Positions 6,981 through 23,628 of a DNA stretch of 62,327 nt are shown here, piece after piece. Numbering within the stretch: position 1 is the stretch's first letter; every line of letters begins with the position of its first letter. Where the stretch lies: positions 1 through 62,327 of the forward strand of contig JAUTCS010000048.1 in NCBI GenBank assembly GCA_030673825.1, written 5' to 3'. The position numbers and the translations under genes were made by a program. The DNA comes from Verrucomicrobiota bacterium JB024 (lineage in GTDB: Bacteria; Verrucomicrobiota; Verrucomicrobiia; Opitutales; Cerasicoccaceae). The notes under the pieces are model-generated. The model was not told where the DNA came from. It saw only the letters and a program-made list of their open reading frames with translations, and did no database searches.

Positions 6981-7108
6981 GAGTTTGCGGCTGTCATGGG
7001 GACAGCTTTCCATCAAGGATGGGATGATCGATTCCGAGGATGGCGTATTGTGCTATATGGCGCAGGGTTTCGTCTTTTTTCAGCTGCCTGACCGGAGTTT
7101 TTTTGCCC

Positions 7109-8614
7109 ATGTCCAAGCGACCGCATTTTGTTTTTTTCGTCCCGGATCAGTTCAGGGGCGACGCCCTGGGACACCGGGATAACCCGGCGGCCCGCACGCC
7201 GCACCTCGACGCCCTCGTCAACACCGGGGCGGTGTCGTTTGACGCGGCCTTTTGCCAGAACCCTGTTTGCACACCGAGCCGCTGCAGTTTCAGCACGGGC
7301 TGGTATCCGCATACCCGGGGACACCGAAGCATAAACTATCTGCTCCAGCCGGGCGAGGACTGCATGCTGCATTATCTGCGGCGGGCAGGCTGGCATGTCT
7401 GGTGGGGGGGTAAGAACGATCTGACGCTCGATGTGGATGGCGCGTGCGATGTGCGCTATCGGGCGCAGCCGACGCGTACCGGTCTGCACGGTGATCTTTC
7501 GTGGCGTAGCTCCGGGGAGGACTACTCCTTTTACGCCGGGAGGCTGGGCGATCAATCGTCGTCTGAGGTTTACCTCGATGAAGACTGGTGCAATGTGCTC
7601 GAGGCCGCCCGCGTTATTCGCGAGTATGACGGGGATAAGCCGCTGTGCGTTTTTCTCCCGCTGAGCTATCCGCATCCGCCCTATGGGGTGGAGGAGCCCT
7701 ACTACAGTCAGGTGGACCGGGAGGAGGTGCCGCCGCGCATTCACGAGGAAGAACTGCGCGGAGAGCGCCCCCGTCTGGCGTCCATCCTGCGGGAGCGTCA
7801 TGGGTTGACGGGGCGCGACGAGACTTTCTGGTGTGAGCTGCGCGGCACTTACTACGGGATGTGCAGCCGGGTGGACGCCCAGCTGGGCTGCGTGGTCGAG
7901 GCCCTGAAAGAGTCCGATCGCTTCGATGGCACAGCACTGTTCTTTTTCTCCGATCACGGTGACTACACCGGCGACTATGGGCTGGTCGAAAAGGCGCAGA
8001 ACCTTTTCGAAGACTGCCTGACGAACGTCCCCCTTGTGATCAAGCCCCCTCGCCATCAGGAATGCCGCCCGGGCCGCCGCTCCGCCCTGGTTGAGCTGGT
8101 CGATATTCCGGCCACGGTGTATGACCTGGCAGGCATACGCCCGCAGTACACGCACTTTGGCCGGGCGCTGACGGGGCTCTTTACGCGGGACGGCGAGCAC
8201 CGTCCGGCAGTTTTCTGTGAGGGCGGGCGCATGCGGGATGAGCTGCACTGTGCCGAGGGTGAGGGGAATGCTCGGGGAAATCTCTACTGGCCCCGCCTGT
8301 CAGCCCAGGTCGAGTGCTGGCCAGCACATGGTAAGGCTATCATGTGCCGCACGAAGGACTGCAAGTACGTGTATCGACTTTTTGAGGCGGACGAGTTCTA
8401 TGACCTGAAGCTCGATCCCGGTGAGACGTGTAACCGCATCCACGAAGACGCTTGTCAGGGCAAGATCCAGGCCTGCCGGGATGCTGTGCTGCGCTTCATT
8501 TCTGAGACCTCCGATTTCGTCCCTGTCGTCTTGGACCCCCGTGACGTGAGGTCTAAAGCCGATGCCTTGCCGAATGCCGAGCTCTTGTCTTTAGCTCGCA
8601 CAGGCGGGCGCTGA
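7109..8614 (+). CDS. Sulfatase without signal peptide (S1 family)
   Basis: About 501 residues of a type I sulfatase. The metal-binding start is V-P-D-Q-F-R-G-D, and the formylglycine signature is CTPSRCSFSTG with Cys54. The S-D-H-G-D-Y-T-G-D-Y-G segment carries the second metal site. The frame extends to 7040, but ATG 7109 directly precedes the conserved first strand. Even the longer version lacks a convincing signal peptide, so the enzyme is probably cytoplasmic, acting on imported sulfated oligosaccharides, in contrast to the secreted sulfatase nearby. Controlled probably by the LacI-family protein next door. Exact substrate unknown. Confidence 0.9.
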   Translation: MSKRPHFVFFVPDQFRGDALGHRDNPAARTPHLDALVNTGAVSFDAAFCQNPVCTPSRCSFSTGWYPHTRGHRSINYLLQPGEDCMLHYLRRAGWHVWWGGKNDLTLDVDGACDVRYRAQPTRTGLHGDLSWRSSGEDYSFYAGRLGDQSSSEVYLDEDWCNVLEAARVIREYDGDKPLCVFLPLSYPHPPYGVEEPYYSQVDREEVPPRIHEEELRGERPRLASILRERHGLTGRDETFWCELRGTYYGMCSRVDAQLGCVVEALKESDRFDGTALFFFSDHGDYTGDYGLVEKAQNLFEDCLTNVPLVIKPPRHQECRPGRRSALVELVDIPATVYDLAGIRPQYTHFGRALTGLFTRDGEHRPAVFCEGGRMRDELHCAEGEGNARGNLYWPRLSAQVECWPAHGKAIMCRTKDCKYVYRLFEADEFYDLKLDPGETCNRIHEDACQGKIQACRDAVLRFISETSDFVPVVLDPRDVRSKADALPNAELLSLARTGGR

Positions 8615-8764: not shown

Positions 8765-8780
8765 TAAGGATTATTTGCTC

Positions 8781-9545
8781 ATGACTACCTTTGATCGCCG
8801 CCAGAGGATTCTCGAACTCGTCCGTGAGGACGAAAGCATCGCGGTACAAACCTTGGTCGATACCCTGGGGGCGTCTCCGGCGACGGTGAGGCGCGATCTG
8901 GTGGAACTGGAAAAAGAGGGCAGGGTGGTGCGCACCCATGGCGGCGTGTTGCATCCGCGCAAGCTCTCCGCCGAGCCGAGTTTTTCCGTCAAGCAGCAGC
9001 GTGTACCTGCGAACAAGCGCGGCATCGGGCGGGCTGCCGCCAGCGCGATCCCGAAGGGCGCGAGCGTCTTCATTGACGCGGGCACGACATGTCTGGAAGC
9101 AGGACTAGCCTTACTGGAGCGCAATGCTAACACCTTGTTTACGAACTCCCTGCCGTTGCTCTATCACGGCTGTTCCCAACCGGGGCGTGTGATAGCACTG
9201 GGGGGCGAGGTACGCTCCATCAGCCGGGCCTTGGTGGGCGGGATGGCGCTGGAGTGGTTGCGGCATCTGCGCTTTGACTACGCGATCGTCGGCGCCTCTT
9301 CGCTGGATGCGCAGGCCGGCGCGTTTACCACCGAAATGAGTGAGGCCGATGTCAAGAGCCAGGCCCTTCAGCATGCCGGTATCTCGCTGCTTGCCGCCGA
9401 CAGTGAGAAACTGACGCTCAGCGCCCCGGTCAATTTCGCCCCCTGGACAGCGTTCAACCATTGGATCACAGATGCCAGCGTTCCGCCCGAGCTTCTGCGC
9501 AAGCTGAGAAAGCAACTTAATGTGACGATAGCCCCCACCTCTTAA
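8781..9545 (+). CDS. DeoR-family transcriptional regulator
   Basis: About 254 residues. N-terminal DeoR winged HTH (F-D-R-R-Q-R-I-L-E-L-V at about 4-14, then the T-V-R-R-D-L-V-E-L-E recognition region at 35-44 and G-x-V-V-R-T-H-G-G wing). The C-terminal DeoRC sensor resembles an ISOCOT sugar-phosphate isomerase fold and should sense a phosphorylated sugar. ATG 8781 is preferred over a TTG at 8775 because AAGGA lies ten bases upstream. The gene is followed after seven bases by the aldolase-like gene, so it heads the mannose-type operon and probably represses it in the absence of a sugar phosphate. Confidence 0.93.
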   Translation: MTTFDRRQRILELVREDESIAVQTLVDTLGASPATVRRDLVELEKEGRVVRTHGGVLHPRKLSAEPSFSVKQQRVPANKRGIGRAAASAIPKGASVFIDAGTTCLEAGLALLERNANTLFTNSLPLLYHGCSQPGRVIALGGEVRSISRALVGGMALEWLRHLRFDYAIVGASSLDAQAGAFTTEMSEADVKSQALQHAGISLLAADSEKLTLSAPVNFAPWTAFNHWITDASVPPELLRKLRKQLNVTIAPTS

Positions 9546-9552
9546 CACGACC

Positions 9553-10599
9553 ATGCTCAAGAGCCTCGACCAGAAACTTTCCCGCATCCACGCCGGAACC
9601 GCCACCGCGCAGGATTTCATCATCGCCGACGCCAAAGACGCCGACATGGCCTTCGGGATCACCGCCCCCGGCCCCAACCGCGCCGGTGCCTGCCCTCACG
9701 GCTACAACGAGTCCGACGGCTGCTACAAGACGCTGGCCGACTACCGCGAGCAGATCCGCGCCGTGATCAAGCAGGGCTTGGTGGACATCATGCTCCTGTC
9801 CGCCTCCAACGTCGAGCAGCTCGCCATCGAGGAAAAGCTCTTCCGCAACTCGCCCATCACCCCGGCGGCCCGCGCCAACGACACGACGGACGTGTGGGTC
9901 GTGCGCGGCGGCAAATACCCCAGCCAGCCCTCGCGGCACTTCCGCACGGCCACTCTCGACCACATCAAGTACGGCAAGCTCGAAACCAACTACCATCGCC
10001 CGCACGTCGGGGCGGACCTCGGCCTCTACTCGATCACCTTCACCAACAACATCGACTGGGACTACCGGGCACTGGAGGAGTTTCACAAGTTCCGCCTGGA
10101 GGCCGAGACCAAGCGTTTCCGCTACTTCCTCGAAGTCTTTAACCCCAACGTCGATCCCGGCATCGACCCCAAACAGGTCGGCTCCTTCCTCAACGACCAC
10201 ATCATCCGCTGCCTGGCGGGCGTCACCCGCGCTGGTCGCCCCGTGTTCCTGAAGATCCCGTACAACGGTCCCGGCCCGTTGGAGGAACTCGTCTCCTACG
10301 ACCCCTCGCTTGTGGTCGGCATCCTCGGCGGCAGTGCCGGGACGACCCTCGACGCCTTCCAACTCATCCACGACGCGCAGAAACACGGCGCGAAAGTCGC
10401 TCTCTTCGGTCGCAAGATCAACCTCTCCGAGCACCCGCTGGCTTTTATTGAGTTCCTGCGCCGCATCACCGACGGCGAGGTCGCGCCCGCCGAGGCCGTC
10501 CGCGCCTACCACGGCGTGCTCCAGCGCTCGGGCATCAGTCCGGCCCGCCCGCTCGAAGACGACCTCGTGCTCTCCAGCACCAAACAGAGCTACTCCTGA
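9553..10599 (+). CDS. Aldolase-like TIM-barrel protein (DeoC/LacD superfamily)
   Basis: 348 residues. I recognise a class I aldolase-like pattern rather than a named enzyme: F-L-K-I-P-Y-N-G-P-G-P in the position of the Schiff-base strand, then G-I-L-G-G-S-A-G-T-T-L-D-A-F, typical of a phosphate-binding end of a TIM barrel, and V-A-L-F-G-R-K-I-N before the last helices. The gene sits between a DeoR regulator and genes for a lyxose/mannose-type isomerase and a PfkB kinase, with an ATG eight bases after the DeoR stop. It could therefore split a ketose phosphate (for instance fructose-1-phosphate) into two three-carbon units. That function is inferred from neighbours. No frameshift or oddity was seen. 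Confidence 0.65.
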   Translation: MLKSLDQKLSRIHAGTATAQDFIIADAKDADMAFGITAPGPNRAGACPHGYNESDGCYKTLADYREQIRAVIKQGLVDIMLLSASNVEQLAIEEKLFRNSPITPAARANDTTDVWVVRGGKYPSQPSRHFRTATLDHIKYGKLETNYHRPHVGADLGLYSITFTNNIDWDYRALEEFHKFRLEAETKRFRYFLEVFNPNVDPGIDPKQVGSFLNDHIIRCLAGVTRAGRPVFLKIPYNGPGPLEELVSYDPSLVVGILGGSAGTTLDAFQLIHDAQKHGAKVALFGRKINLSEHPLAFIEFLRRITDGEVAPAEAVRAYHGVLQRSGISPARPLEDDLVLSSTKQSYS

Positions 10600-10603
10600 C
10601 CTC

Positions 10604-11176
10604 ATGAAACGTTCCGCGATTAACGCTATCTTCCGCGAGGCCCGCGCGTGTTTCGAACGCCACGGCTGGACCCTGCCGCCCGCGCCCCGCTGGGACATCA
10701 CCGATTTCGGCCTCGGACGTTTTGATGAATATGGGCTGGTCCTGATCAATCTGGCCGAAGAGCCTGAATATTGCGAGAAGCTGATGTTCGCCCGTCCCGG
10801 CCAGCGTACGCCCGCGCACACGCACGCCCGTAAAAAGGAGGACATTATCTGTCGCCATGGACGTCTGGCTCTCCGCTTGTGGGACGGCCACCCCGAGCGC
10901 AGCAAGTCCCGTGACCCACTGAGTCTGCGCGTCAACGGCGCACCCCTCACCCATGCATCGGGTGAGATACTGGTCCTTGATGCCGGGGAACGTGTCACCC
11001 TCACGCCGGGTATTTATCACGAATTCTGGCCAGAGACCGAAGACTGCATCATCGGCGAGGTATCCACTGCGAACGACGACGCCAACGACAATATTTTCGT
11101 CGATCCGGCCATCGGGCGCTTCCCCGGCATCGAGGAAGACGAGCCCGCCGTCGTGCGCCTGATCAGCGAAGCCTGA
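10604..11176 (+). CDS. D-lyxose/D-mannose ketol-isomerase family cupin
   Basis: About 190 residues of the D-lyxose isomerase family (former DUF1498), cupin enzymes that use a divalent metal to interconvert D-lyxose/D-xylulose or D-mannose/D-fructose. The metal ligands are visible: H72-x-H74 in A-H-T-H-A-R, E79 in K-K-E-D, and H139 in G-I-Y-H-E-F-W. Length is close to that of the family. The start ATG at 10604 is four bases after the upstream stop; longer in-frame readings would overlap the aldolase-like gene. A beta-mannosidase two genes downstream suggests mannose as the substrate here, producing fructose for the adjacent PfkB kinase. Confidence 0.88.
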   Translation: MKRSAINAIFREARACFERHGWTLPPAPRWDITDFGLGRFDEYGLVLINLAEEPEYCEKLMFARPGQRTPAHTHARKKEDIICRHGRLALRLWDGHPERSKSRDPLSLRVNGAPLTHASGEILVLDAGERVTLTPGIYHEFWPETEDCIIGEVSTANDDANDNIFVDPAIGRFPGIEEDEPAVVRLISEA

Positions 11177-11201
11177 CTCCAACCGATCTCCCCATCTACC
11201 C

Positions 11202-12212
11202 ATGACGAGAAACGGCATCCTATGTGCAGGAAACTGGATCATCGATCACGTCAAGGTGCTCGACGCCTGGCCGCATCAGGACGGGCTCGCCACCATCACA
11301 GAGCAGTCAGACGGCAACGGCGGCTGCCCTTATAACGTGGCCAAGGATCTCGCTCGGCTCCACCCTGGCCTTCCCCTTTACGCCTCCGGCCTGCTCGGGG
11401 ATGATGCTGATGGGCGCGCTATCATCGCGGATTGCCAGGAGCACGGTATCGACAGTGCGCGCCTGCAACTGACCGCCGAGGCTCCCACCTCGTACACCGA
11501 TGTGATGACTGATCGTTCGACCGGTCGCCGTACGTTCTTTCATCAGCGTGGCACCAACGCGTTACTGGGAGCGGAGCATATTCGCCTGGACGACTGTCCA
11601 GCCCGTCTTTTCGTGATGGGTTACTTCGGCCTGCTTGACACTCTTGATGCGGTCGGTCCCGACGGCAGCAACGGCCACGCCAAGGTCTTCGCGCGTGCTT
11701 CCGAGTTGGGCATGCTGACCTGTGCTGACTTGGTGAGTACACCCTGTGACTTTCCGGCTATCGTTGGTCCCAGCCTGCCGCACCTCGACCTGCTCGTGCT
11801 CAACGAGTGGGAAGCTGCGGAACTGACGGGTATTCCGAACGGAGATAACGGCGAAGTCGATATCGCCGCGCTTCAGAACCAAGCACGCATGCTGCTGGGT
11901 CGCGGCGTTCGCCGAGCCGTGGCCATCCACTTCCGAGAGGGCGCAGTCATCGTTACCGCAAGCGGCGAGACGCACCTTCAGGGCTCCGTTAAATTTTCCT
12001 CCGAACGCATTCGGGGAGCGGCCGGAGCCGGTGACGCCTTCTTCGCCGGGCTCCTTTATGGCCTGCACGAAGGCTGGTCATGGTCTGATTGCGCCCGACT
12101 GGCTGTCTGCACCGCGACCGCTTCTCTCGAAGCCCCCACTTGCTCCGACGCAGTCCGCCCCTGGCGGGAATGCCTCGCTCTCGGCGACGAGTTCAGTTTC
12201 GAAACGCTATAA
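11202..12212 (+). CDS. PfkB-family sugar kinase (probable fructokinase-type)
   Basis: 336 residues with PfkB hallmarks: an early G-N-W-I-I-D-H substrate-binding strand, a D-G-N-G-G-C-P-Y-N-V-A-K-D-L motif (G-G-x-x-x-N-x-A), and the catalytic G-A-A-G-A-G-D-A-F-F signature with Asp278 as base. The family phosphorylates sugars or nucleosides using ATP. Placed after a mannose/lyxose-type isomerase, the likely substrate is fructose. If it makes fructose-1-phosphate, the aldolase-like neighbour could cleave it. The stop codon TAA lies within a perfect TAAGCGCTTA palindrome (12210-12219). Confidence 0.88.
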   Translation: MTRNGILCAGNWIIDHVKVLDAWPHQDGLATITEQSDGNGGCPYNVAKDLARLHPGLPLYASGLLGDDADGRAIIADCQEHGIDSARLQLTAEAPTSYTDVMTDRSTGRRTFFHQRGTNALLGAEHIRLDDCPARLFVMGYFGLLDTLDAVGPDGSNGHAKVFARASELGMLTCADLVSTPCDFPAIVGPSLPHLDLLVLNEWEAAELTGIPNGDNGEVDIAALQNQARMLLGRGVRRAVAIHFREGAVIVTASGETHLQGSVKFSSERIRGAAGAGDAFFAGLLYGLHEGWSWSDCARLAVCTATASLEAPTCSDAVRPWRECLALGDEFSFETL

Positions 12213-12386: not shown

Positions 12387-14936
12387 ATGCAGTTTGATCC
12401 CATTGATTTAACCGGTATCTGGCAACTGTTGGAACGACCTTTGGGCGATGATATTCATGCCATGCGGGATGTACAAGACGCCATGTCGGATGCGATAGTC
12501 TGCCATGTCCCCGGCGATGTGAGTGACAGTCTGGTTCAGGCCGGGAAGATGCCTGAGCCGCTTGTTGGCCTGAATTTTCAGCAGTTCGACTGGATCGATG
12601 ACCGTTCATGGTGGATGACCCGTGAGGTTGAGGTGCCTGCCGAATGGGAAACCTTGCCCCAAGTCCAGCTCTTACTCGATGGGCTGGACTACGGCGCAGA
12701 TATCTGGCTCAACGGTCATCACTTGGGGCACCATGATTCCGCGTTCTATCCGTTTACCTGTGATGTAAAGCCACACCTGCAATGTGGCAGCGCCAACACA
12801 CTGCTGGTGCGCCTGACGACCGGGCGTGATATCGCAGAGCAGTACCGGGACGATCCTCTGTGCAATGCCACCGCAACTGAAGCCGCGCGCGGCTATCCCG
12901 AGCGAGGGATGAAGCATCGTATTTTCCTACGCAAGCCGGCCTACACATGGGGTTGGGACTGGGGGCCGTATCTTGCCACCTGCGGCATCACCGGTCATGC
13001 AATGCTCAAGCCGGTGCCCACCGTGCAGATCAACGATGTTGCCGTGGTCACAACCTTGCAGGGTAAGGATGCCATCGTCGATGTGTGTGTCGAAACGAAT
13101 CACCAGTCAATCTCCTCCACCTGCCGTGCGGATGTAACGGTCAGCCTCACCGACGAAGCCGGTAAGACATTTTCAACCACGCGGTCCAATGTTACCTTGA
13201 GTAGTGGGCTGTCGCATTTGGACTTGCGCTGCATCATCCCCGACGCACGACTGTGGTGGCCCAACGGTACAGGGGAGCAGCATCGCTATGAATTAGTCAC
13301 GAGCATTGCTGTTAAGGATCAATGCGTGCATACCCGTAAGACCAGGATCGGTCTACGCACCGTCCGCCTGATCGATGAACCGGGCCACTTCGCCTTTGCT
13401 GTTAACGGGCAACCGATCTTCATCAAGGGTGGCAACTGGATCCCGTCCGACAGCCTGTACGGGCGCATCAGCGATGCCAAGCTCACGACGTTGGTTGCCG
13501 AGGCCGCCAACGCTAATTTCAACTGCTTGCGAGTCTGGGGTGGGGGGCGCTATGAAGCGGACCGATTTTACGATGCCTGCGACGAGTATGGCATCCTGCT
13601 TTGGCATGACTTCATGAGCGCCTGCGCGGCTCTGCCTGCGGATCGTGATTGGTTTGTACGCAGCTTCGAAGCGGAAGCAAGATACCAGATCAAGCGTCTT
13701 CGTAATCGCGCATGCCTGATGCTTTGGTGTGGCAACAATGAAGTCTCACAGTTCTATGACTCTCCTGATTTTGCAGACAAAATCCAGCAGGTACGCGATC
13801 CGGGCTGGGCGCTGTATCACGAGCTCCTGCCTGCGTTAATCAGGGAACTTTGCCCGCAAGTGCCCTATCGCCCGACCAGCCCTTACGGCGGGGCGACGAC
13901 CGTGCATGACCACCGGGAGGGAGACTGTCATCACTGGACGGTCATGCTGCCGGAGACGGAATACTGGTCCAATCCATGGTACTGGGATACCGATGATGTT
14001 CCGATCTTCAACTCCGAGTATGGCTACGGTGGGCCCTGCTGCATCGAAAGCACAAAGCAGTATCTCGACAGCAACAGGCCCAATCTGTTTGATGAAACGG
14101 GACGACAACACACCAACACGTTTTACGATATCCGGCGCGTGAACTTCAGCATTACGGAACATTACCGCGATGCCGAGGGTTTGTCGCTGGAGCAATACAT
14201 TCTGCTTGGCGGTTTATGTCAGGGCTTGAATCTGGGATACTCGCTGGAGAGCATGCGTGCCAACCCGCAAACGATGGGCGGTATCTTCTGGATGTATAAC
14301 GACACGTGGGGCGAGAACGGTTGGACGATCGTTGACTATAATCTTCGTCGCAAGATTTCATATTACAACGTTAAGCGTTCCTTGGCTCATCAGCGTCTAC
14401 TGTTGCGTAAGGGCGGACAGGTATATGGTGGTAAATCCAGTGAGATACTGCTCATGGCTGTGAATGACACGCCCTCGACGATGGATATTTGTGGGCGATG
14501 GGGGTATCAACGTTACGACGGATCGCAAAGACAACTCACGCCATTGAAAGCCAGCGTTCCGCCATTTGATCATTCCGTCATCGCGACAATGCCCATGCCA
14601 TCCGCTGATCAACTTGAAGTCGGCACTGTGATCGCCATCCCCGATCAGGTCACCACGTTGGAGCCGGTGAGCTGGTTGCGCGGGCCGTATCGCACATTGC
14701 ACCTGCCTGATGCCAATGTGCAGATCAAGGCATGTGAGCGTGCCGACGATAAGTTACTGGTCACGGTTAAGAGTGATGTCTTTGCTCACGCGGTGCATTT
14801 GAACATACCCGGGGATTACCGCTTGAGCGACCACTACTTTGATCTGTTTGCAGGCGAATCACGCACAGTGGTGATTGAGGATGCACAGGACATTGATGTT
14901 GGCACACTCACAGCATCGTGCGTCAATCAGGCGTGA
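12387..14936 (+). CDS. Beta-mannosidase, glycoside hydrolase family 2
   Basis: 849 residues of a GH2 beta-mannosidase, which removes terminal beta-linked mannose. Domain order: jelly-roll sugar-binding domain (about 1-200, ending in the Y-T-W-G-W-D-W-G-P motif typical of beta-mannosidases), immunoglobulin-like domain (about 200-310), TIM barrel (about 310-640) and C-terminal beta domains. The acid/base is Glu452 in W-C-G-N-N-E-V and the nucleophile Glu544 in F-N-S-E-Y-G. There is no signal peptide, so it should act on imported oligosaccharides. Its base composition looks less G/C-rich than flanking genes, hinting at separate origin. Together with the isomerase and PfkB kinase it makes a mannoside utilisation set. 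Confidence 0.95.
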   Translation: MQFDPIDLTGIWQLLERPLGDDIHAMRDVQDAMSDAIVCHVPGDVSDSLVQAGKMPEPLVGLNFQQFDWIDDRSWWMTREVEVPAEWETLPQVQLLLDGLDYGADIWLNGHHLGHHDSAFYPFTCDVKPHLQCGSANTLLVRLTTGRDIAEQYRDDPLCNATATEAARGYPERGMKHRIFLRKPAYTWGWDWGPYLATCGITGHAMLKPVPTVQINDVAVVTTLQGKDAIVDVCVETNHQSISSTCRADVTVSLTDEAGKTFSTTRSNVTLSSGLSHLDLRCIIPDARLWWPNGTGEQHRYELVTSIAVKDQCVHTRKTRIGLRTVRLIDEPGHFAFAVNGQPIFIKGGNWIPSDSLYGRISDAKLTTLVAEAANANFNCLRVWGGGRYEADRFYDACDEYGILLWHDFMSACAALPADRDWFVRSFEAEARYQIKRLRNRACLMLWCGNNEVSQFYDSPDFADKIQQVRDPGWALYHELLPALIRELCPQVPYRPTSPYGGATTVHDHREGDCHHWTVMLPETEYWSNPWYWDTDDVPIFNSEYGYGGPCCIESTKQYLDSNRPNLFDETGRQHTNTFYDIRRVNFSITEHYRDAEGLSLEQYILLGGLCQGLNLGYSLESMRANPQTMGGIFWMYNDTWGENGWTIVDYNLRRKISYYNVKRSLAHQRLLLRKGGQVYGGKSSEILLMAVNDTPSTMDICGRWGYQRYDGSQRQLTPLKASVPPFDHSVIATMPMPSADQLEVGTVIAIPDQVTTLEPVSWLRGPYRTLHLPDANVQIKACERADDKLLVTVKSDVFAHAVHLNIPGDYRLSDHYFDLFAGESRTVVIEDAQDIDVGTLTASCVNQA

Positions 14937-15108: not shown

Positions 15109-15440
15109 TTTCTTGTATCAGTTTTTCGGTACACCGGTAAAAGGTATTGATTCAGCGAGGCTTTCAGCGGTGGGACGATGGGGGCGCGGCGCTTGATTTT
15201 GCCGTCTATCTTGCCCCGTAGATGATCAGGTATTCCTGTGCGGATGTCCGTGGCTTTTAGGTCGGTCAGACTCGCATGCGGACCTTCGGTCAGAGATGTT
15301 TTCTCGTTAAGCCAAAAGGGCGGAGTGAATCTGCACATCATTTTGGCGTATTGGGGTATCGGTCTTTCTTGAGTGGGGGAGGCGGGATAGGGGAGAATCG
15401 CAATTCGATTCACATGCTTAACCTCAATCATACTCCTGCC
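14937..15440. other. Mostly non-coding stretch between beta-mannosidase and PEP-CTERM gene
   Basis: About 500 bp. The only possible coding content is a short leftward ORF (14923-15108), listed separately, preceded by a 108-codon leftward frame (15105-15431) that I do not believe is a gene. No hairpin with a U-tract is evident after the beta-mannosidase stop. The promoter of the PEP-CTERM gene must lie at the right end. Confidence 0.5.
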
Positions 15441-16211
15441 ATGAGAAAGATATTGCAGATACTACCCCTCGCTCTTTTAACTCCGTTTTTCGCTTTCGGA
15501 AGTGCGGCTGTTTACGAGCCGTTTGCATACGCGGACGGCCTTCTGGGTGGTGATGATGGTGGAACCGGCTTCTCGGGAGGCTGGACAGCCGTCAACAGAT
15601 ATCACGTGGAAAATGAAACACTGATCACCTCCCTGGCGCAAACCGGCTCAGCCAGCCGCGGGTTGGCTTCCGACCTCGCGGACGACTTTTACTTCTCGAT
15701 CGACTACTCGTACAGCGGGACGCTCGGGGTTACCGTCAATGACGTGTTCTATTTCAGTGATGGAAGCACCAATGTGCTGGGCGTCGGCTGGTACCGTTTC
15801 GGTGACTCAAGCACCTACCGTGTCAGTCTCATGAACGGGGGAAGCACGACCTACATCGATAATGCTTTTGCCTATGTGGCCGGACATCAGGTTGTCGGAA
15901 ATGTTAAGTTCAACGGCGACGATACCGTCACACTGACCGTGTGGATTGATCCGACTGGAGTAGAAACTGCGCCCTATTCAGAGTCTATCACCTTGAGCTA
16001 TGCGGGTAGCGGGCTGGATACCGTGAAGCTGGTGCGTTATTCATCCGGATCCGGCGAGACGACGATCCAGCAGAATGTGGACAGCTTTGCCATCGGGGCG
16101 ACGTGGAATGACGTGACTCAGATTCCCGAGGAAAGCACCTCAGTGATGCTTGGTCTCCTTGCTTCTTGCATGGTTCTTGTTGTTTGGAAGCGAGGCGCGG
16201 GGAGAAAGTGA
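15441..16211 (+). CDS. PEP-CTERM-type exported protein
   Basis: About 256 residues. Signal peptide 1-22 (M-R-K-I-L-Q-I-L-P then hydrophobic to G-S-A-A), then Y-E-P-F-A-Y and G-G-x-G-F-S-G-G-W, the typical opening of LamG-like verrucomicrobial/planctomycete PEP-CTERM proteins, a beta-strand-rich body, and an I-P-E-E-S-T motif plus membrane span and K-R-G-A-G-R-K tail. ATG 15441 is chosen because it precedes the signal peptide; an earlier ATG at 15414 is possible. It probably is anchored or sorted by an exosortase and may bind or present polysaccharide. It is followed after 51 bases by the GH13 pair. Confidence 0.85.
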   Translation: MRKILQILPLALLTPFFAFGSAAVYEPFAYADGLLGGDDGGTGFSGGWTAVNRYHVENETLITSLAQTGSASRGLASDLADDFYFSIDYSYSGTLGVTVNDVFYFSDGSTNVLGVGWYRFGDSSTYRVSLMNGGSTTYIDNAFAYVAGHQVVGNVKFNGDDTVTLTVWIDPTGVETAPYSESITLSYAGSGLDTVKLVRYSSGSGETTIQQNVDSFAIGATWNDVTQIPEESTSVMLGLLASCMVLVVWKRGAGRK

Positions 16212-16262: not shown

Positions 16263-17654
16263 ATGAACACTCTTCTCGATTATTCAGAACACCTGGGCGC
16301 GTCTGCTGGAAAGCATCGTAGGTGCTCGTATGATAGTGCTCTCAGCGCCTCCGTCATCTATAAAATCTGGCTGCGTTCGTTCACCGCGGAGGGAACAATT
16401 CGAGCCGCGAGTGAACGCCTGCCTGAGGTGGCCGACCTGGGCGTGAGCTGGCTGCTGGTATCTCCATTCCTTAAACCGTCACCGGACACCACGTCGAGCC
16501 CGGGTAGTAAGGCGGCGGAGTCAACTCAGAGTCATACGGCCCCCAATCCCTACGGCATCGCGGATTTCGAGGCGGTGGACCCGGAGTTCGGAACATGGGG
16601 TGACTGGCGTAGGTTCGTCGACACCGCACACCGGCTTGGGATGAAAGCGATGATGGAGGTTGTGTTCACCCACAGTGGCACCCGCTGTGGGCTTTTGGAA
16701 TATCCGGGCTTCTATCGGCTCGACGACCGGGGAAATCCTCTGCTCGGGGAATGCGGATTCCCACTGTTTGATTTCAAGAGCGATAAGCTCAGAGCTTACT
16801 TGATCGCGCGACTGTGCCAATGGGTCAGCGACGACCATGTTGATGGCTTTTCTTGTGTGCGCTCGTCTGAGGTTCCTGTTGATTTCTGGAAGAAGGCTCG
16901 AGTGACCCTTGAGGAGCGGAATCCACAAGTCGTCATGCTTGGGGACGGTACGCCTGAGGAAATGAATGGTGTATTCGATCTTGGATACGATAAGTGCTAT
17001 TATTCGTCGATATTGTCGGCGGTGACGGACGGGCAACCTGCGATCGTTGTTCACCGGGCATGGGAGGATGTTCAGGCTGGTATGCCGGAAGGGAGCCTGA
17101 TGGTCCGCTCCAATGAGGATGTCGGCACCGAACGGGCCGACCTGGCCCTGGGGGAGGGGGGAGCCGAGGCCACGGATGTGCTTGCCTGCTTGTTGGATGG
17201 TGTCCCACTTTTTATGAACGGGCAGGAGATCGGCGATGCAACCCCGATTAACGTCACGTCAGCGCAGACTATCCGCTGGGATTCGGGTTCCTTCGTTGCG
17301 TCCAACTTCCGCGCCCGCCCTCGGCGGAAGTTGTTCCGCCAACTGCTCGAACTGCGCAAGGAAAACGCCTGCCTGAACCGCGGCGAGGTCGTGTGGCTGG
17401 ATAACGATCAGCAGGAGAGCGTGCTTTCTTTTGTTCGTCAGCACGATGGTCGGAAGATGCTGGTGGTGATCAATCTCTCTAACCGTTCCCTTCAAGTGTC
17501 GCTCGACACCAGCCTGAAGCCATTTAACCGGCTATTCGATTTGGTTCGCGGATGCCCTCGGTCGTCCGTGTTGGGTTACGGACGTCCGACGTTCATGCTT
17601 GAAGCCTACGCTTATATCGTCGGTGAACCCATGAGCCAAAGAGCGTGCATATGA
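16263..17654 (+). CDS. GH13 alpha-amylase-family protein with lost catalytic residues
   Basis: 463 residues and a tandem paralogue of the next gene: both share I-W-L-R-S-F, N-P-Y-x-I, D-P/E-P-E-x-G-T, H-R-L-G, L-D-G-V/I-P and N-G-Q-E-I blocks and nearly equal length. Compared with the downstream copy, the nucleophile Asp in G-F-R-C-D-V is Val199 here (G-F-S-C-V-R), the acid/base Glu of L-A-E-S-E is Asp228 (L-G-D-G-T), while the last Asp (N-E-D, Asp286) is kept. The usual Arg before the nucleophile is Ser. It is therefore expected to be unable to carry out normal GH13 hydrolysis. It may be a binding or regulatory pseudoenzyme. No signal peptide. The frame is intact, so it is not a decaying pseudogene. 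Confidence 0.88.
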   Translation: MNTLLDYSEHLGASAGKHRRCSYDSALSASVIYKIWLRSFTAEGTIRAASERLPEVADLGVSWLLVSPFLKPSPDTTSSPGSKAAESTQSHTAPNPYGIADFEAVDPEFGTWGDWRRFVDTAHRLGMKAMMEVVFTHSGTRCGLLEYPGFYRLDDRGNPLLGECGFPLFDFKSDKLRAYLIARLCQWVSDDHVDGFSCVRSSEVPVDFWKKARVTLEERNPQVVMLGDGTPEEMNGVFDLGYDKCYYSSILSAVTDGQPAIVVHRAWEDVQAGMPEGSLMVRSNEDVGTERADLALGEGGAEATDVLACLLDGVPLFMNGQEIGDATPINVTSAQTIRWDSGSFVASNFRARPRRKLFRQLLELRKENACLNRGEVVWLDNDQQESVLSFVRQHDGRKMLVVINLSNRSLQVSLDTSLKPFNRLFDLVRGCPRSSVLGYGRPTFMLEAYAYIVGEPMSQRACI

Positions 17655-19036
17655 GAAAAGACATCCCTACAGTCGCTCCTGATGAATGGCTTGGCGAAGC
17701 ACCGTGCTGCGAGACGCCCTTGCGCCTGCGTCCCGCCCGGCCCGCGGCGGACCATGTCCCGGAAATGATGATCTACCAGATCTGGCTCCGGTCGTTTACC
17801 CCCGAAGGCACCCTGCGGGCGGCTAAAGATCGTCTGGAGTACGTGGCTGAGCTCGGAGCCAACACGGTTTACCTCTCGCCGATCTCGAAGCACTCCGAGG
17901 ATGCCCGGCCACAATACCTAAGCCCTCGCACAAGCCAGTCGTCGGCCGGGCACGTGAAAAACCCTTACCGCATCTCTGATTACGACACCGTGGAGCCGGA
18001 ATACGGAACCGAGGAGGACCTGCGGGCGTTCATCGCGGAAGCGCATCGCCTTGGGTTACGCGTGCTCATGGATTTGGTGTATTTTCATTCCAGTGCGGAC
18101 AGTGTGCTATTGAAGGACCCGGAATTCCATGTGCGCGATGAAAACGGAGAGCCGGTTTTGGGAGACTGGAATTTCCCTGTCCTGAACTTTGAGTCTGCGA
18201 ACCTGCGTCGGTGTATGATCGGCAATATGTTGCACTGGGTACGTGATTGCGGTGCGGATGGTTTCCGCTGCGATGTTTCCTATGGGGTGCCGTCGAGTTT
18301 CTGGGAGGAGGCCCGCTATGCGCTGGAGGCTGTGAAGCCGGATATCGTGATGCTGGCCGAATCGGAAGTGCCGCAGGAGCAGCTCAAGGCCTTCGATCTG
18401 AGCTACAATTTTTCCTATTACCTGGTGCTGTACGATGTGATGCGCAAGGGCCATCCGGCCACGCGCTTGCGTGAGCAATGGGAAATCAAGCGGTCAAAGT
18501 TCCCGGCGGGTGCCCGCCATGCCTACTTCTGCGACAACCACGACAAGGACCGGGTTGACGTGGTGTTCGGATATCGCGGAGCCGAAGTCGTCGCCGCTCT
18601 GATGTTCGCGCTCGACGGGATTCCTTTTGTCTATAACGGGCAGGAGATCGCAGACGCCACGCCTGACGACGTGATGTCGCGCGAGACGATCCGTTGGGAC
18701 CTGGCTGACGAGCCGTCACGGCGGGAACGAACTGCGTTTTTCCGCGACTTGTTCGCTGTGCGCAGAAGGGAGCGTGTGCTCACACACGGCGTGTTGAAGT
18801 GGATGGCAAACTCCGCGCCCGATGCCGTCCTGACGTTTACCCGCGAGGATGGCGCCCGGAAACTGCTGGTGGCGGTCAATCTCTCCAATCGCAACGAGAT
18901 TGTGGACCTGGATTGTCGCCTGAGCGAAGAGACGCCGCTGCTGGAGAGGCGTTGGTCGCGGATGAGTGCCCCCGGAGGTTCCTGTGAGCGCCTGTGCCTG
19001 AGGGCTTACGGCTTTCTGGTGGCAGCCATCGACTGA
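17651..19036 (+). CDS. GH13 alpha-amylase-family glycosidase, catalytically intact copy
   Basis: About 461 residues. A short GH13 enzyme with (beta/alpha)8 barrel and no signal peptide, so cytoplasmic. The four regions are visible: D-L-V-Y-F-H (region I; Asn replaced by Phe), G-F-R-C-D-V with nucleophile Asp208, M-L-A-E-S-E with acid/base Glu237, and D-N-H-D with Asp298. A C-terminal beta-sandwich follows from about residue 370. Its ATG 17651 overlaps the stop of the preceding paralogue as ATGA, indicating translational coupling; a GTG at 17645 is an alternative. Substrate is not clear: a short alpha-glucan or alpha-glucosyl oligosaccharide is likely. Confidence 0.92.
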   Translation: MRKDIPTVAPDEWLGEAPCCETPLRLRPARPAADHVPEMMIYQIWLRSFTPEGTLRAAKDRLEYVAELGANTVYLSPISKHSEDARPQYLSPRTSQSSAGHVKNPYRISDYDTVEPEYGTEEDLRAFIAEAHRLGLRVLMDLVYFHSSADSVLLKDPEFHVRDENGEPVLGDWNFPVLNFESANLRRCMIGNMLHWVRDCGADGFRCDVSYGVPSSFWEEARYALEAVKPDIVMLAESEVPQEQLKAFDLSYNFSYYLVLYDVMRKGHPATRLREQWEIKRSKFPAGARHAYFCDNHDKDRVDVVFGYRGAEVVAALMFALDGIPFVYNGQEIADATPDDVMSRETIRWDLADEPSRRERTAFFRDLFAVRRRERVLTHGVLKWMANSAPDAVLTFTREDGARKLLVAVNLSNRNEIVDLDCRLSEETPLLERRWSRMSAPGGSCERLCLRAYGFLVAAID

Positions 19037-19139
19037 TGCCTTTCTTTCTGATGGGAGGAGAGCAGCCTGGCAAGGGCTTTGGGCTTGTGATTGCCACGGG
19101 GACGAAATAGAACTCTGACGGTTACCCCGTGTTGTGGCA

Positions 19140-20282
19140 ATGACAGCTACCCCCCTCATCTGGCATGGCAAGTACGTCCTGGTTTTGGTAAGATGGATAT
19201 CCCCAAGCCTGGAATATGGTATCCGCTCCTATGCGCGCGAAACGGACTGGATGCTGTTGTTCCCGCGTTTACAGTTCAGCGTCGGAGATGGGATCAAGCA
19301 CGTGGATGGCCTCATCATGCTGCTTTACGAAGATGAGGTGGTTTCCACGCGAAAGCTTTTTCCTGACGCGAAAATTGTGGACATCCGCGGCACGCGTGGG
19401 TTGTCCTCGGATGCGGTGGTGCACCCGGATAACGCGCGTATCGGTGTCATGGCCGCCGATTACTTCTACGCCAAGGGATTTCGCTCGTTCATGGGTATCT
19501 CGCCGCGGAAAGAGTCGATTATGGATACCCGGTTGCGGAGTTTTGCCCGCCGGGTGAGAGAACTGGGTTGCGATGTCGCCATCGAGAGTGGGGAGGGATG
19601 GTTCTACGACCCCAAACGGGTGGTTGAGCACTTTGAGAGATACCTGCGTAAGCGGGTGCAACCGCTGGCCATCTTTACGCCGGGAGATTTCATGGCCACT
19701 GTGGTCGTGCAGGCGGTGCAGATACTCGGCTACCGTATCCCCGAGCAGATATCCGTGCTAGGGGTGAACAATGACCGTATCTTCTGTGAAACCTCGAAGG
19801 TGCCCATCTCAAGTATCGATGAGGACCTGACGCTGGTGGGCTATGAGGCGGCGCGGACATTGGATGCCCTGATGGGGGGGAAGTCCGTGAAAAAACGCAC
19901 GCTCATCTCGCCGCTCAAGGTGCATGAGCGACATTCGACTTCGCGGGAGCACTCGGCCGACTCGCTGGCCAATGCCATTCTGGTCTATATCCGCGATCAT
20001 TTTTCGGAGAAAATTTCTATCGAGGAACTCTGCCGCCATGTGGGCGCTTCACGTTCTTTGGCCAACAGCCGTTTCCGCAAAATCATGGGCCGGACGATCG
20101 GGGATGAAATTGAACGCGTCAGGATGGAGTATGGGCAGTCCTTGTTGCGCAAGACGGATTACAAGGTCGATGCCGTGGCCAGGCTTTGCGGTTATGAGAA
20201 CACCTCGGCCTTTTGCCGCCGCTTTCGTCGCAATATCGGACTGACACCGGGAGCTTTCCGCGAGAAGGAGCAAGTCCAGTAG
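19140..20282 (+). CDS. XylR-like AraC-family regulator with LacI/PBP-type sensor
   Basis: About 380 residues. The N-terminal two thirds (about 10-270) is a periplasmic-binding-protein-like sensor, with I-P-E-Q-I-S-V-L-G-V-N-N-D and S-S-I-D-E-D-L-x-x-V-G-Y-E-A-A, as in XylR and LacI sensors. The C-terminal AraC domain (about 280-375) has two HTH elements, ending in V-A-R-L-C-G-Y-E-N-T-S-A-F-C-R-R-F-R-R and G-L-T-P-G-A-F-R. Such proteins activate sugar genes upon ligand binding. It lies between the GH13 pair and the large GH42-like gene in the same direction, so it likely controls one or both. ATG 19140 is chosen; a GTG two codons earlier (19134) is possible. Confidence 0.93.
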   Translation: MTATPLIWHGKYVLVLVRWISPSLEYGIRSYARETDWMLLFPRLQFSVGDGIKHVDGLIMLLYEDEVVSTRKLFPDAKIVDIRGTRGLSSDAVVHPDNARIGVMAADYFYAKGFRSFMGISPRKESIMDTRLRSFARRVRELGCDVAIESGEGWFYDPKRVVEHFERYLRKRVQPLAIFTPGDFMATVVVQAVQILGYRIPEQISVLGVNNDRIFCETSKVPISSIDEDLTLVGYEAARTLDALMGGKSVKKRTLISPLKVHERHSTSREHSADSLANAILVYIRDHFSEKISIEELCRHVGASRSLANSRFRKIMGRTIGDEIERVRMEYGQSLLRKTDYKVDAVARLCGYENTSAFCRRFRRNIGLTPGAFREKEQVQ

Positions 20283-20385
20283 TTCGGGCGACCCTGTTCT
20301 GCCGGCGTATCTGCATATATTTCTGGCACACTGGCGGATGGCTGTTTGTTGACGGTAACCCTTGAGAACTCAAGTCTTGCGCTTA

Positions 20386-23300
20386 ATGCCCCCCATGCCT
20401 CTTTCCCTTGCGACCCCAACGCTTTCACTCACCCTTTCCTTTGCCACAGTTATGCTTCTTGGAACGTCACACGGTCAGCTGGCACCAGACGATCCCCTGA
20501 GCCGTACTGATCCCTACACCCTTTATTTGAATGGCGACGAGCGACCGCTTCCCGGTTACTTCTCGCTTGCCTTTGTGGGAGGGCTTCCGGCCAGGACGAT
20601 TCCGCTGGGTTATAATCTGTCCAGCATTCATTCTTCCTTTGCTCAGGATTTTGCGGACGGTGTCGCATTTCCCCCGGCTCCGTTTCAGCCGGAAGACCAC
20701 CTGCGCTACATGAGCAAGGAGCTGGGAGGGATCAATCTCGGCATACGCATGCTCTCGGCCGCAAAGAAAGGAGCCCTGCCCCTGAAAACCAAAAAGTACG
20801 GAGACATGTATCCGTCTCTGGATGCGTCGGGGGAGCCCTATGCGCATGTGTTGAAGATTATCAATGTCTTCGATCCGGCCACGCGGCGCTACCTGCTCGA
20901 TTATGCCCGCGCGCATGTGCGTGAATGGGGCGTGGACGACCCGTCGGGTAAGACGATCATCTACTGGTCGATGGATAATGAGTGGGAGGGAGCTCCCAAT
21001 TATTCCCCTGCGGCCCGTGCGGCATTCGCCAATTGGCTGGAGGAGGCGTACGCGGGCGAGGTGGCGGCGTTGAACGATTGCTGGGGTGAAGATTACGCCA
21101 GCTTTGAAGCCGCCGCGAACGGTGATCTTCCCGCGCCGGATGAGTACCGGACGCGCCCGGCTGTATTCCTCGACTGGTACACTTTTCAGAGTGAGGCCTT
21201 TACCGGATTCCTCAGCGAGATTGCCACCGCGATGTATGAGGAGGACCCGCAGCGGCGTCCCGTCATCCACAAGTCCACTCAACAAACGATAGAAATGCCG
21301 ACGGCGAACCGGCGCTTCACGTTCGATCCGGCGCTCTTCGCGGAGCAGATGCGGACGGTCGGTGGCGGCTATTTCGGCATCGATATATACGGAGCCGGTG
21401 ATCGTGAGACCTACGAGACGAACTACGCTTACCAGTGCATCCGCCCGGACGGGCACAGTCCCGGCTACGGGGTTGTCCTGTGCGAGACTAATAACCACGG
21501 CGGTCCCGGCCATCAGTATGCGGCGACCTTCTGGCGCCTGCTGGCCAATGGCGTAAAAGGCCTGCACAACTTTACGACCGGCTTTGCCGGAGCCGAAGGC
21601 GACTTCTCCAAGTTCGGGTTTCTGGACGCTCAGACGGGGATGCCGAGAGACAAGTTCTTTTACGCCGCGCGCCTGGCCCACGAGATCCACCGCGCCGAGG
21701 GATTCTGGACACAAAGTGTCCCTGCCGCATCCAACAAACGGGTCGCTCTGCTGATGCCGCGCCGGGACGTGCTGCTGGCCGACTCGTCCCAGAGAAACAA
21801 GCACGTCAGTATCTGGGCCTACGCGGAGAATCACCGCTGGCTCCTGTTTCGCAGGTTGCGGGAGCAGGGCTATTGGGTGGACATCATTCCCTACACCAAG
21901 CTGAATCCAGACTACCTGAAGGGCTACGAGGCTTTGTTCCTGATTGGGGCTGAGCACCTGAGTCAGCCTGAGCAGGATGTGATTGAGGAGTATGTCGCCG
22001 GTGGCGGCACCCTTGTTGCAGACGAGCGTCCGGGCTACTACGATGAGCACCATCGCGTGCTTAACGACCTCGAAACCGTGCTGGGAATGTCGCTGGGGGA
22101 GACGGAAAATGTTTCACCGGTGCGCTTCGAGACCGGAGGCATCGAGATTTCCGGCAAGCGGTCGTTTTCCTCCCAGCCGGTCGGTGCCGAGCCTGTGGCT
22201 GAAAACGCCGACGGTGTGCCGCTGGCTTACCTGCATCGCTATGGAGAGGGGACCGTCCTGTATTTCCCCTGCATGCTTGGCACGCTGGAGGGCGATTTTT
22301 CGAGTGTGGACGGAAAGAGCTTTGTCGTTGAGGATGGTCCGACCGCTGACGGCGAGGAGTACCGCGCGCGAACGGGAGAGTTTGCGCTTGGCGACTGGTT
22401 GGGGGACATGCTCGCTCGGGCAGGGCTGACCCCGGCTGTGGAGGTGGCGGGCGATCACCCGGAGACACGCGGCCTGTTGCGGCTGGAGCAGCCGGTTATC
22501 GATGAGCAGGGAAACGTCGCGGTGGTCGTCAGCAGTCGGGCCGCTTCCGAGCATGAGGTCATCGCTCCGTGTACGGTTCGGCTCGCACTGCCGGGCGGAC
22601 CCTGGTCGGTGGGGCTGTGGTCGCCCGCCGAGCACGACGGACTGGAGGCGGTTTCCCTGACCGCTCTGGAAGACGGACGCTATGAGATCGCTCTGCCGGA
22701 GGTTCAAACGGCGGGGGTGCTTTATCTTTTCAACCACCACAGCCCCCTGTTGGGTATCGCGCCGGTCGAGACCGCCCGCCGTTCGGTGGATGGCCATGGT
22801 CCGGTCGTCCGTCCCGGTGAGACCTTCGATGTTTGCGTTCAGATTTTCAATACCACCGGAGACGAGATGCCGGAGGGGGCTTTGCGCTTGGTCGCCCCGA
22901 TGGAGTGGCATGTCGGACGCTCCGAGGTGCCGACCGAGGCGCTCCCGGCGGGAGCGAGCACAAGCGCGACATTTGCCGTAACGCCTCCGGGGGGCGACGC
23001 GGCTTTGCAGCCCGGATTTTTATATCCTCTCGTGGCGCGATGGAGCGATGGCGATGAAGACCGCGCTGTGATTTCCACCAACGTCGAGGCAGCCCCGGAC
23101 CCGTCAGCGGTTCCCCGACTGCTTACGGATAACGCGACCTACCCGGATACCTATCCTTACCGGACCCAGACTGGCGCCACTTACCGGACACTCGCCCCGG
23201 AAGATCGTGGCCTCTACCGCGATCCCGCCGCCCCGGATGAAAATGATCCCCGTGGTGCTTTGCTCAATGGACACGGATGGTGGCTCGGGCGCATGGGCCT

Positions 23301-23628
23301 GCCTGTCACGCGCACCGTCGAGCGGAAAGCCTATGCCACGTACCGCTCACCCGAGACGGTGTTGCTCTTCGATCTGAAAGGGGTGAGGGAGTTATCCTCG
23401 GTCTATGTCGTCACGATCCCAGAGCTGGGTACACCGGCCAGTATCAGCATTGAAACCAGCCAGGACGGGAAGGTTTTCGAATGGCAGGAAACGGCTGATT
23501 TTTCCGGGCGATGGCAAACGGCCAGGATTGAGCTACCAGTCTGCCGTGCACAATACGTGAAAATGACCATTGCCTGGCCATCTGAAAAAGGAGGAGCGCT
23601 CGATGAAGTCGAAATCTGGGGAAGATAA
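20386..23628 (+). CDS. Exported GH42-like beta-galactosidase-type glycosidase
   Basis: About 1080 residues. N-terminal signal-like hydrophobic stretch (to about residue 30, ending H-G-Q). TIM barrel of the GH42 (glycosidase clan A) type to about residue 440, with Glu199 in W-S-M-D-N-E-W-E-G as acid/base and Glu367 in V-L-C-E-T-N-N as likely nucleophile. Next is a GH42 trimerisation-like domain (V-A-L-L-M-P-R to Y-V-A-G-G-G-T-L-V), then beta domains, and a C-terminal discoidin/F5-8-like sugar-binding module (E-T-S-Q-D-G-K-V-F-E to V-E-I-W-G). Probably acts outside the cytoplasm on galactose-containing or related glycans. A TTG at 20362 would extend it slightly. The next gene begins inside its last 26 bases. 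Confidence 0.85.
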   Translation: MPPMPLSLATPTLSLTLSFATVMLLGTSHGQLAPDDPLSRTDPYTLYLNGDERPLPGYFSLAFVGGLPARTIPLGYNLSSIHSSFAQDFADGVAFPPAPFQPEDHLRYMSKELGGINLGIRMLSAAKKGALPLKTKKYGDMYPSLDASGEPYAHVLKIINVFDPATRRYLLDYARAHVREWGVDDPSGKTIIYWSMDNEWEGAPNYSPAARAAFANWLEEAYAGEVAALNDCWGEDYASFEAAANGDLPAPDEYRTRPAVFLDWYTFQSEAFTGFLSEIATAMYEEDPQRRPVIHKSTQQTIEMPTANRRFTFDPALFAEQMRTVGGGYFGIDIYGAGDRETYETNYAYQCIRPDGHSPGYGVVLCETNNHGGPGHQYAATFWRLLANGVKGLHNFTTGFAGAEGDFSKFGFLDAQTGMPRDKFFYAARLAHEIHRAEGFWTQSVPAASNKRVALLMPRRDVLLADSSQRNKHVSIWAYAENHRWLLFRRLREQGYWVDIIPYTKLNPDYLKGYEALFLIGAEHLSQPEQDVIEEYVAGGGTLVADERPGYYDEHHRVLNDLETVLGMSLGETENVSPVRFETGGIEISGKRSFSSQPVGAEPVAENADGVPLAYLHRYGEGTVLYFPCMLGTLEGDFSSVDGKSFVVEDGPTADGEEYRARTGEFALGDWLGDMLARAGLTPAVEVAGDHPETRGLLRLEQPVIDEQGNVAVVVSSRAASEHEVIAPCTVRLALPGGPWSVGLWSPAEHDGLEAVSLTALEDGRYEIALPEVQTAGVLYLFNHHSPLLGIAPVETARRSVDGHGPVVRPGETFDVCVQIFNTTGDEMPEGALRLVAPMEWHVGRSEVPTEALPAGASTSATFAVTPPGGDAALQPGFLYPLVARWSDGDEDRAVISTNVEAAPDPSAVPRLLTDNATYPDTYPYRTQTGATYRTLAPEDRGLYRDPAAPDENDPRGALLNGHGWWLGRMGLPVTRTVERKAYATYRSPETVLLFDLKGVRELSSVYVVTIPELGTPASISIETSQDGKVFEWQETADFSGRWQTARIELPVCRAQYVKMTIAWPSEKGGALDEVEIWGR
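23588..23594 (+). promoter_or_regulatory. Strong ribosome binding site inside the glycosidase gene
   Basis: AAGGAGG lies 8 bases before the pseudopilin ATG at 23603, within the last codons of the GH42-like gene. It fixes the pseudopilin start and implies translation of both from one message. Confidence 0.75.

Follow-up and report, generated by a model that had tools for sequence, protein, structure and literature searches.

The 62,327-nucleotide window analysed here, from contig JAUTCS010000048.1 of Verrucomicrobiota bacterium JB024 (assembly size 4.6 Mb), holds two genes of glycoside hydrolase family 13 (GH13) head to tail, both with intact reading frames. The downstream gene, P2, encodes a protein with a complete catalytic set, and the upstream gene, P1, overlaps the start of P2 and encodes a paralogue in which most of that set is replaced. 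The sequence evidence described below indicates that P1 is a maintained pseudoenzyme rather than junk. The further proposal that P1 is the non-catalytic subunit of a P1–P2 heteromer, which draws on the analogy with plant isoamylases, we regard as evenly balanced.

Careful comparison of the two proteins reveals where P1 departs from an active enzyme. A first-pass annotation, made from the DNA letters of the window, had described two paralogues of similar length (463 and 461 residues), of which the second keeps Asp208, Glu237 and Asp298 while the first carries Val199, Asp228 and a Ser in place of the conserved Arg. P1 and P2 are indeed GH13 paralogues (39% identity across 425 amino acids, E 2e-100, BLASTP), and alignment finds the P2 set complete (D208, E237, D298, R206, H146, H297 and D141). 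The three replacements named for P1 were read correctly, but the list was incomplete, as E132 and E285 had been missed: P1 replaces five of the seven canonical residues, namely D141E, R206S, D208V, E237D and H297E in P2 numbering. Two residues of the old active site, Tyr97 and H137, are still present. The third catalytic Asp is probably kept as D286, the codon after E285; its position is ambiguous, with one alignment shifting this segment, and in the P1 model an Asn-Glu-Asp triplet comes directly after the strand at residues 279–283.

These replacements stand out against the rest of the family. In a first set of 92 aligned rows, P1 and P2 included (repeat loci L064, L065, L072 and L074 and matches below 100 bits omitted; G and L numbers are our handles for genomes and loci), 90 rows are complete, one is truncated and the sole loss is P1, and we therefore exclude chance. 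A second set of 117 rows, which shares genomes with the first and omits the window's own locus (L254), a fusion (L207) and matches below 60 bits, contains 109 complete rows, one truncated row, P1, and six rows (five genes) that are otherwise substituted. Across 152 non-redundant intact rows (rows shorter than 400 amino acids, L159_3 and rows at least 90% alike omitted), the catalytic columns are essentially invariant. Substrate binding of the ordinary kind in the old active site of P1 appears unlikely, since the Arg of subsite -1, the nucleophile, the acid/base and the His are lost.

Replaced catalytic residues need not abolish activity, and BmaN1 of GH13_45 is the relevant precedent. BmaN1 carries Lys and His at two catalytic positions, yet has amylase activity, and its group shares with P1 the change of the region-I Asp to Glu (PMC5347038). 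That P1 is likewise still an enzyme, with changed chemistry, would also agree with its retention of H137 and probably D286. However, BmaN1 keeps its acid/base Glu and is active alone, and the Asp one residue after its lost nucleophile, the explanation offered for its activity (PMC5347038), has no counterpart in P1, which reads Cys-Val-Arg-Ser there (C198-V199-R200-S201) and has no acidic residue adjoining the lost nucleophile. With Arg, acid/base and His lost as well, we consider a P1 of changed chemistry very improbable.

The pattern of what P1 has lost and kept argues for maintenance. Among the 41 columns conserved in at least 90% of the 152 rows, P2 included, P1 loses five of the seven catalytic columns versus four of the 34 others (Fisher p 0.003); with region IV scored as lost, six of the seven catalytic columns are gone (Fisher p 0.0003). 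Under uniform drift at the overall 38% identity of P1, keeping 30 of 34 scaffold columns has p ~2e-9, a test that is silent on whether selection acts on P1 today. Neutral simulations that covered half of the divergence, ending at 62% identity to the starting sequence, produced stops in every one of 300 runs (mean 7.5). The statement in the first-pass annotation that the dead copy is kept thus stands as regards its frame and scaffold, with 463 open codons and the 30 of 34 columns. At the five substituted codons, P1 and P2 differ by 1, 3, 2, 1 and 2 bases, so that the losses taken together do not look fresh, and differences at 70 of the 98 four-fold sites of identical residues put the pair close to saturation. 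The G+C content of P1 by codon position (0.611, 0.454 and 0.648) is coding-like and lies within the range of its neighbours.

The same figures bear on whether P1 is a gene in the course of pseudogenisation, or a sequencing error. Likely errors or pseudogenes are the explanation given in print for 17 of 364 GH13_48 sequences, which were removed for want of complete catalytic machinery (PMC11239784), and internal stops occur in the family, at three of the 31 matched stretches of our class search. These are one stop codon each in L235, L255 and L256 (genomes G738, G734 and G719), possibly decaying copies or an alignment running past the gene end. Decay or error in P1, to which we give scarcely any credence, fits poorly with five distinct catalytic replacements, each by one to three base changes, in a frame of 463 open codons with its scaffold retained and coding-type G+C.

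The predicted fold of P1 is that of an intact family member. PF00128 lies above the Pfam cutoff in both proteins (53.8 bits in P1, 117.8 bits in P2); for domain C, PF16657 exceeds the cutoff in P1 (28.1 bits), and domain-C models fall just below it in P2. Structure prediction of each protein, which the first-pass annotation had named as a check, returned a complete barrel for both, from alignments using 55 of 72 listed rows: AlphaFold gives P1 a full barrel with confidence (predicted local distance difference test score, pLDDT, 87.6; predicted template modelling score, pTM, 0.89) and P2 a complete barrel with pLDDT 93.9. P1 therefore has the GH13 fold, a (beta/alpha)8 barrel plus domain C, and lacks the GH13 catalytic set. 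The N-terminal CBM48 that plant isoamylase carries is absent from P1: no CBM48 is found among its Pfam matches, and about 30 residues lie ahead of the barrel. A signal peptide is seemingly present, by eye, in three aligned relatives, and none is obvious in P1 or P2.

Both proteins have as their top sequence match 4gkl, AmyB of Thermotoga neapolitana, which is also the top solved structure for P1 by Foldseek and VIA-align (Z 41.3, 2.5 Å over 409 residues). GH13_48 was defined around the maltogenic amylase of T. neapolitana, and its L-[DN] feature occurs in 262 of 304 sequences (PMC11239784). Taking the feature definitions from that paper and placing the conserved sequence regions (CSRs) on P1 and P2 ourselves, we find three GH13_48 features in P2 and two in P1. 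A Cys stands directly before the nucleophile position in CSR-II (C207 in P2; C198, before V199, in P1), and GQ closes CSR-VII in both (G330-Q331 in P2, G320-Q321 in P1). At the close of CSR-V, L178-N179 of P2 fits L-[DN], whereas F169-D170 of P1 does not: P1 differs from the subfamily in lacking this L as well as the catalytic set. Based on these features and on 4gkl as the closest structure, we use the careful term GH13_48-like for both proteins.

The layout of the two genes suggests that they are expressed together. The intact first frame and ATGA overlap reported at first pass were both found in place, the overlap at 17651–17654. The start of P2 is taken as the ATG at 17651, and an alternative in-frame GTG two codons upstream would give a protein of 463 amino acids. 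Promoter and terminator scans gave scores not above those of shuffles, and a search for plasmid DNA returned no match.

To place the pair among its relatives, we used P1 as query against 104 relatives, 28 genomes of the order of G113 and 384 genomes of the class, and P2 against 387 genomes of the phylum and 372 of the order. Contigs were additionally scanned with six P1 peptides, and with P2 aligned to three relatives; of the 178 relatives that the latter scan gave, the best 80 were kept and read. The search sets overlap; E-value limits were 1e-25 or 1e-35 in the order, class and phylum searches and in the order of G113, and in the class, phylum and order searches no more than four candidates per genome were scored; a weak second copy might therefore have escaped. 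The nearest relatives of P1 and P2 belong to other orders and phyla and have their catalytic residues intact, with P2 reaching up to 49% identity in the best segment. Nine genus and family mates (G001–G009) gave no match to P2, and for P1 weak partial matches only, seen in four of them with E values of about 5e-5 at best. The peptide scan confirmed no P1 orthologue.

Phylogenetic analysis does not reject P1 and P2 as a sister pair (approximately unbiased (AU) test, p-AU 0.25). The Shimodaira–Hasegawa-like approximate likelihood ratio test (SH-aLRT) value is 94 in one tree, and another gives no resolution. The first tree omits L146, L147 and L121 (partial); the second tree and the AU-test tree omit short rows and a subset of loci, and the AU set also leaves out L159_3, whose branch is very long. 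P1 and P2 may thus represent a lineage-specific duplication.

Adjacent copies of the family recur elsewhere. Co-directional neighbours were found in nine other assemblies. In seven of these the spacing ranges from -4 to 10 bases: measured to the closest ATG, with start codons unconfirmed, it is 9 bases in G183, 1 in G433, 1 in L183, 10 in G304, 1 in G446, 1 in G413 and -4 in L185. In L229 the gap is 21 bases to a GTG and 54 to an ATG, and the stretch ends within the second copy; in G799 the gap is 125 bases. L185 (580–4803), from a Planctomycetia assembly, carries a run of three GH13_48-like genes, with an ATGA overlap between the first and the second. In G338 (L097:5845-8571, also L207) two catalytically complete GH13_48-like modules are naturally fused in one frame of 909 amino acids. 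The partners of G183/G433/L183 and of G304/G446/G413 fall in separate branches with their order kept, and we therefore read these as conserved hetero-pairs. Paired production of paralogues appears to be a family habit, given that adjacent copies recur and one fusion exists, and from the sequences at hand P1/P2 adds a dead member to it.

A second group with altered catalytic residues was also found. Five genes (G768, G882, G879, G933 and G799; loci L276:8022-11065, which is that of G799, L277, L279, L281 and L284) share a change of the acid/base Glu to Asp; their third Asp is Glu or His and some have His changed to Gln, with nucleophile and Arg kept. The five group together in a supported clade (100/98), and every one of these genomes carries an intact copy besides, which in G799 is the neighbouring gene. 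Placement of P1 within this clade (f38/f106 genomes) was rejected (AU test p 7e-60). The clade looks to be under purifying selection, judging by one comparison with dS (synonymous divergence) below 1: G882 versus G879 has dS 0.52 and a nonsynonymous-to-synonymous ratio (dN/dS) of 0.24, and every other computed pair has dS >1. Its members may be either dead or merely changed, since BmaN1 is active with His at that position.

Several observations weigh against a P1–P2 heteromer. No P1 orthologue was found in the searches above, so that a single assembly has the live/dead pair as far as those searches reach. G711, G714 and G737, among the closest class relatives, each have a single match at threshold with no second copy within 16 kb, and hence appear to work without a partner; G719 and G734 have two copies each, not adjacent. 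The readable copies of the other pairs are catalytically complete, G799 excepted, so that one cannot predict a dead partner from adjacency or coupling. Relatives with an active triad in the first copy, which the first-pass annotation had listed as grounds for refutation, are thus seen in other adjacent pairs; those copies, on the other hand, are not P1 orthologues. Finally, the P1 branch measures 2.3–2.7 against 0.9–1.25 for P2, about twice as long (three trees), and is the longest in two of the trees and second longest in the third, which fits partial relaxation of constraint.

The long branch and the missing orthologue, together with the ATGA overlap, would also suit a P1 that is a translated leader only, a relic whose frame is kept since P2 translation needs ribosomes coming through P1. 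We consider this distinctly unlikely: a leader role preserves an open frame, but neither the 30 of 34 scaffold columns nor a concentration of losses in the catalytic columns.

The closest known counterpart to P1/P2 is the plant isoamylase pair ISA1/ISA2, in which an active GH13 subunit works with a catalytically dead paralogue of retained fold. Of eight active-site residues, Arabidopsis ISA2 retains Val and His, the other six being replaced (Asp to Glu, Arg to Cys, Asp to Ile, Glu to Asp, His to Asn and Asp to Ser); each subunit depends on the other for stability, and ISA1 is the catalytic one (PMC3787081). By our own motif matching, the first five of these positions read Glu, Ser, Val, Asp and Glu in P1, which keeps the same region-I Val and His, whereas the third Asp, lost to Ser in ISA2, is probably kept in P1. 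The likeness is suggestive and not proof, because an Asp/Glu exchange needs one base. The systems also differ in setting: ISA1/ISA2 is eukaryotic, belongs to GH13_11 (PMC12516185) and forms a proven complex, whereas P1 and P2 are adjacent, overlapping genes of another GH13 branch, with a proposed complex. In rBAT/4F2hc, alpha-amylase-family ectodomains serve as heteromer subunits (PMC8537225); these are membrane-anchored with amino acid transporters as partners, unlike the GH13-enzyme partner proposed for P1. The first-pass description of such an arrangement as rare in GH13 was therefore overstated, ISA1/ISA2 being a well-studied live/dead heteromer and rBAT/4F2hc GH13-like transporter subunits. 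For bacteria, the titles and abstract openings listed in our searches of an open-access library showed no live/dead GH13 operon. Some bacterial GH13_48 members lack catalytic residues (PMC11239784), and the part of that paper cited here describes no live/dead pair.

In sum, we read P1 as a pseudoenzyme of long standing that has been maintained, paralogous to P2 and probably made in step with it via the overlapping stop and start. In our preferred reading P1, as the non-catalytic subunit of a heteromer, would lend its barrel, domain C and surface, stabilising P2 or widening its glucan-binding face, while P2 would do the chemistry, as ISA1 does beside ISA2 in plants. A broader proposal, to which we give rather less than an even chance, is that of a bacterial two-subunit amylase whose dead GH13_48-like subunit would be obligate and translated together with its live sister. 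It would have evolved independently of ISA1/ISA2 by nearly the same active-site replacements, and would exemplify a more general tendency of bacteria to make GH13_48-like enzymes as adjacent, coupled or fused pairs, in which one copy has lost or changed its catalytic residues on at least two occasions.

Table 1. Positions in the window of the gene pair, its catalytic residues and the adjacent regulator gene.
Feature	Position	Strand	Remark
P1: predicted GH13 pseudoenzyme, 463 amino acids	16263..17654	+	export signal none apparent (by eye)
P1 E132 (GAG) replaces invariant region-I Asp (P2 D141)	16656..16658	+	alignment
P1 H137: region-I His kept (P2 H146)	16671..16673	+	alignment
P1 S197 (TCT) replaces invariant Arg (P2 R206, CGC)	16851..16853	+	three bases differ
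P1 V199 (GTG) replaces nucleophile Asp (P2 D208, GAT)	16857..16859	+	alignment
P1 D228 (GAC) replaces acid/base Glu (P2 E237)	16944..16946	+	alignment
P1 E285 (GAG) replaces region-IV His (P2 H297)	17115..17117	+	one alignment shifts here
ATGA: P1 stop overlaps P2 start	17651..17654	+	possible translational coupling
P2: GH13 enzyme, complete catalytic set, 461 amino acids	17651..19036	+	export signal none apparent (by eye)
P2 nucleophile D208	18272..18274	+	alignment
P2 acid/base E237	18359..18361	+	alignment
P2 transition-state stabiliser D298	18542..18544	+	alignment
Regulator: periplasmic-binding-like sensor and AraC-type helix-turn-helix, XylR-like	19134..20282	+	PF13377, PF12833, PF00165

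The XylR-like regulator gene, which codes for a sugar-sensor-like domain, shares the strand of P2 and begins 97 bases after it; it may regulate the cluster. With the barrel predicted to be kept and H137 and Tyr97 of the old active site remaining, P1 could instead be a cytoplasmic oligosaccharide-binding or sensing protein independent of P2, acting for example with this regulator. We find this unlikely: loss of the Arg, nucleophile, acid/base and His leaves the old site with a rebuilt sugar cleft; the overlap with P2 is left unexplained; and among the 156 family stretches fetched, in which some places are represented more than once, just 13 contain XylR/AraC-like genes.

Other neighbours were considered as markers of a conserved locus and set aside, as the 156 fetched stretches contained no GH42-like, GH2, PfkB or PEP-CTERM-like relatives (phmmer, E 1e-8). 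Just upstream of P1, the protein encoded at 15276–16211 has no Pfam match; we take its C-terminus to resemble a PEP-CTERM-type anchor. Beyond the regulator, 20362–23628 encodes a 1088-residue GH42-like protein with matches to beta-galactosidase and trimerisation domains. Further upstream lies a sugar-catabolism cluster (8775–12212) with a DeoR regulator, a D-lyxose isomerase domain and a PfkB kinase, adjoined by a GH2 enzyme (12387–14936) and two sulfatases (3090–4634 and 7040–8614).

Catalytically incomplete GH13_48 members are already known in print (PMC11239784), and the overlapping live/dead pair was seen once across the genomes searched here. Incomplete GH13_48 sequences, of which that study set aside 17, may include maintained proteins, as the apparent purifying selection on the altered clade suggests. 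If the P1–P2 complex is real, it would give bacteria a counterpart of ISA1/ISA2 that is small, encoded in an operon and apparently soluble, and would let the contribution of a dead GH13 subunit to stability, specificity and polymer binding be tested in E. coli.

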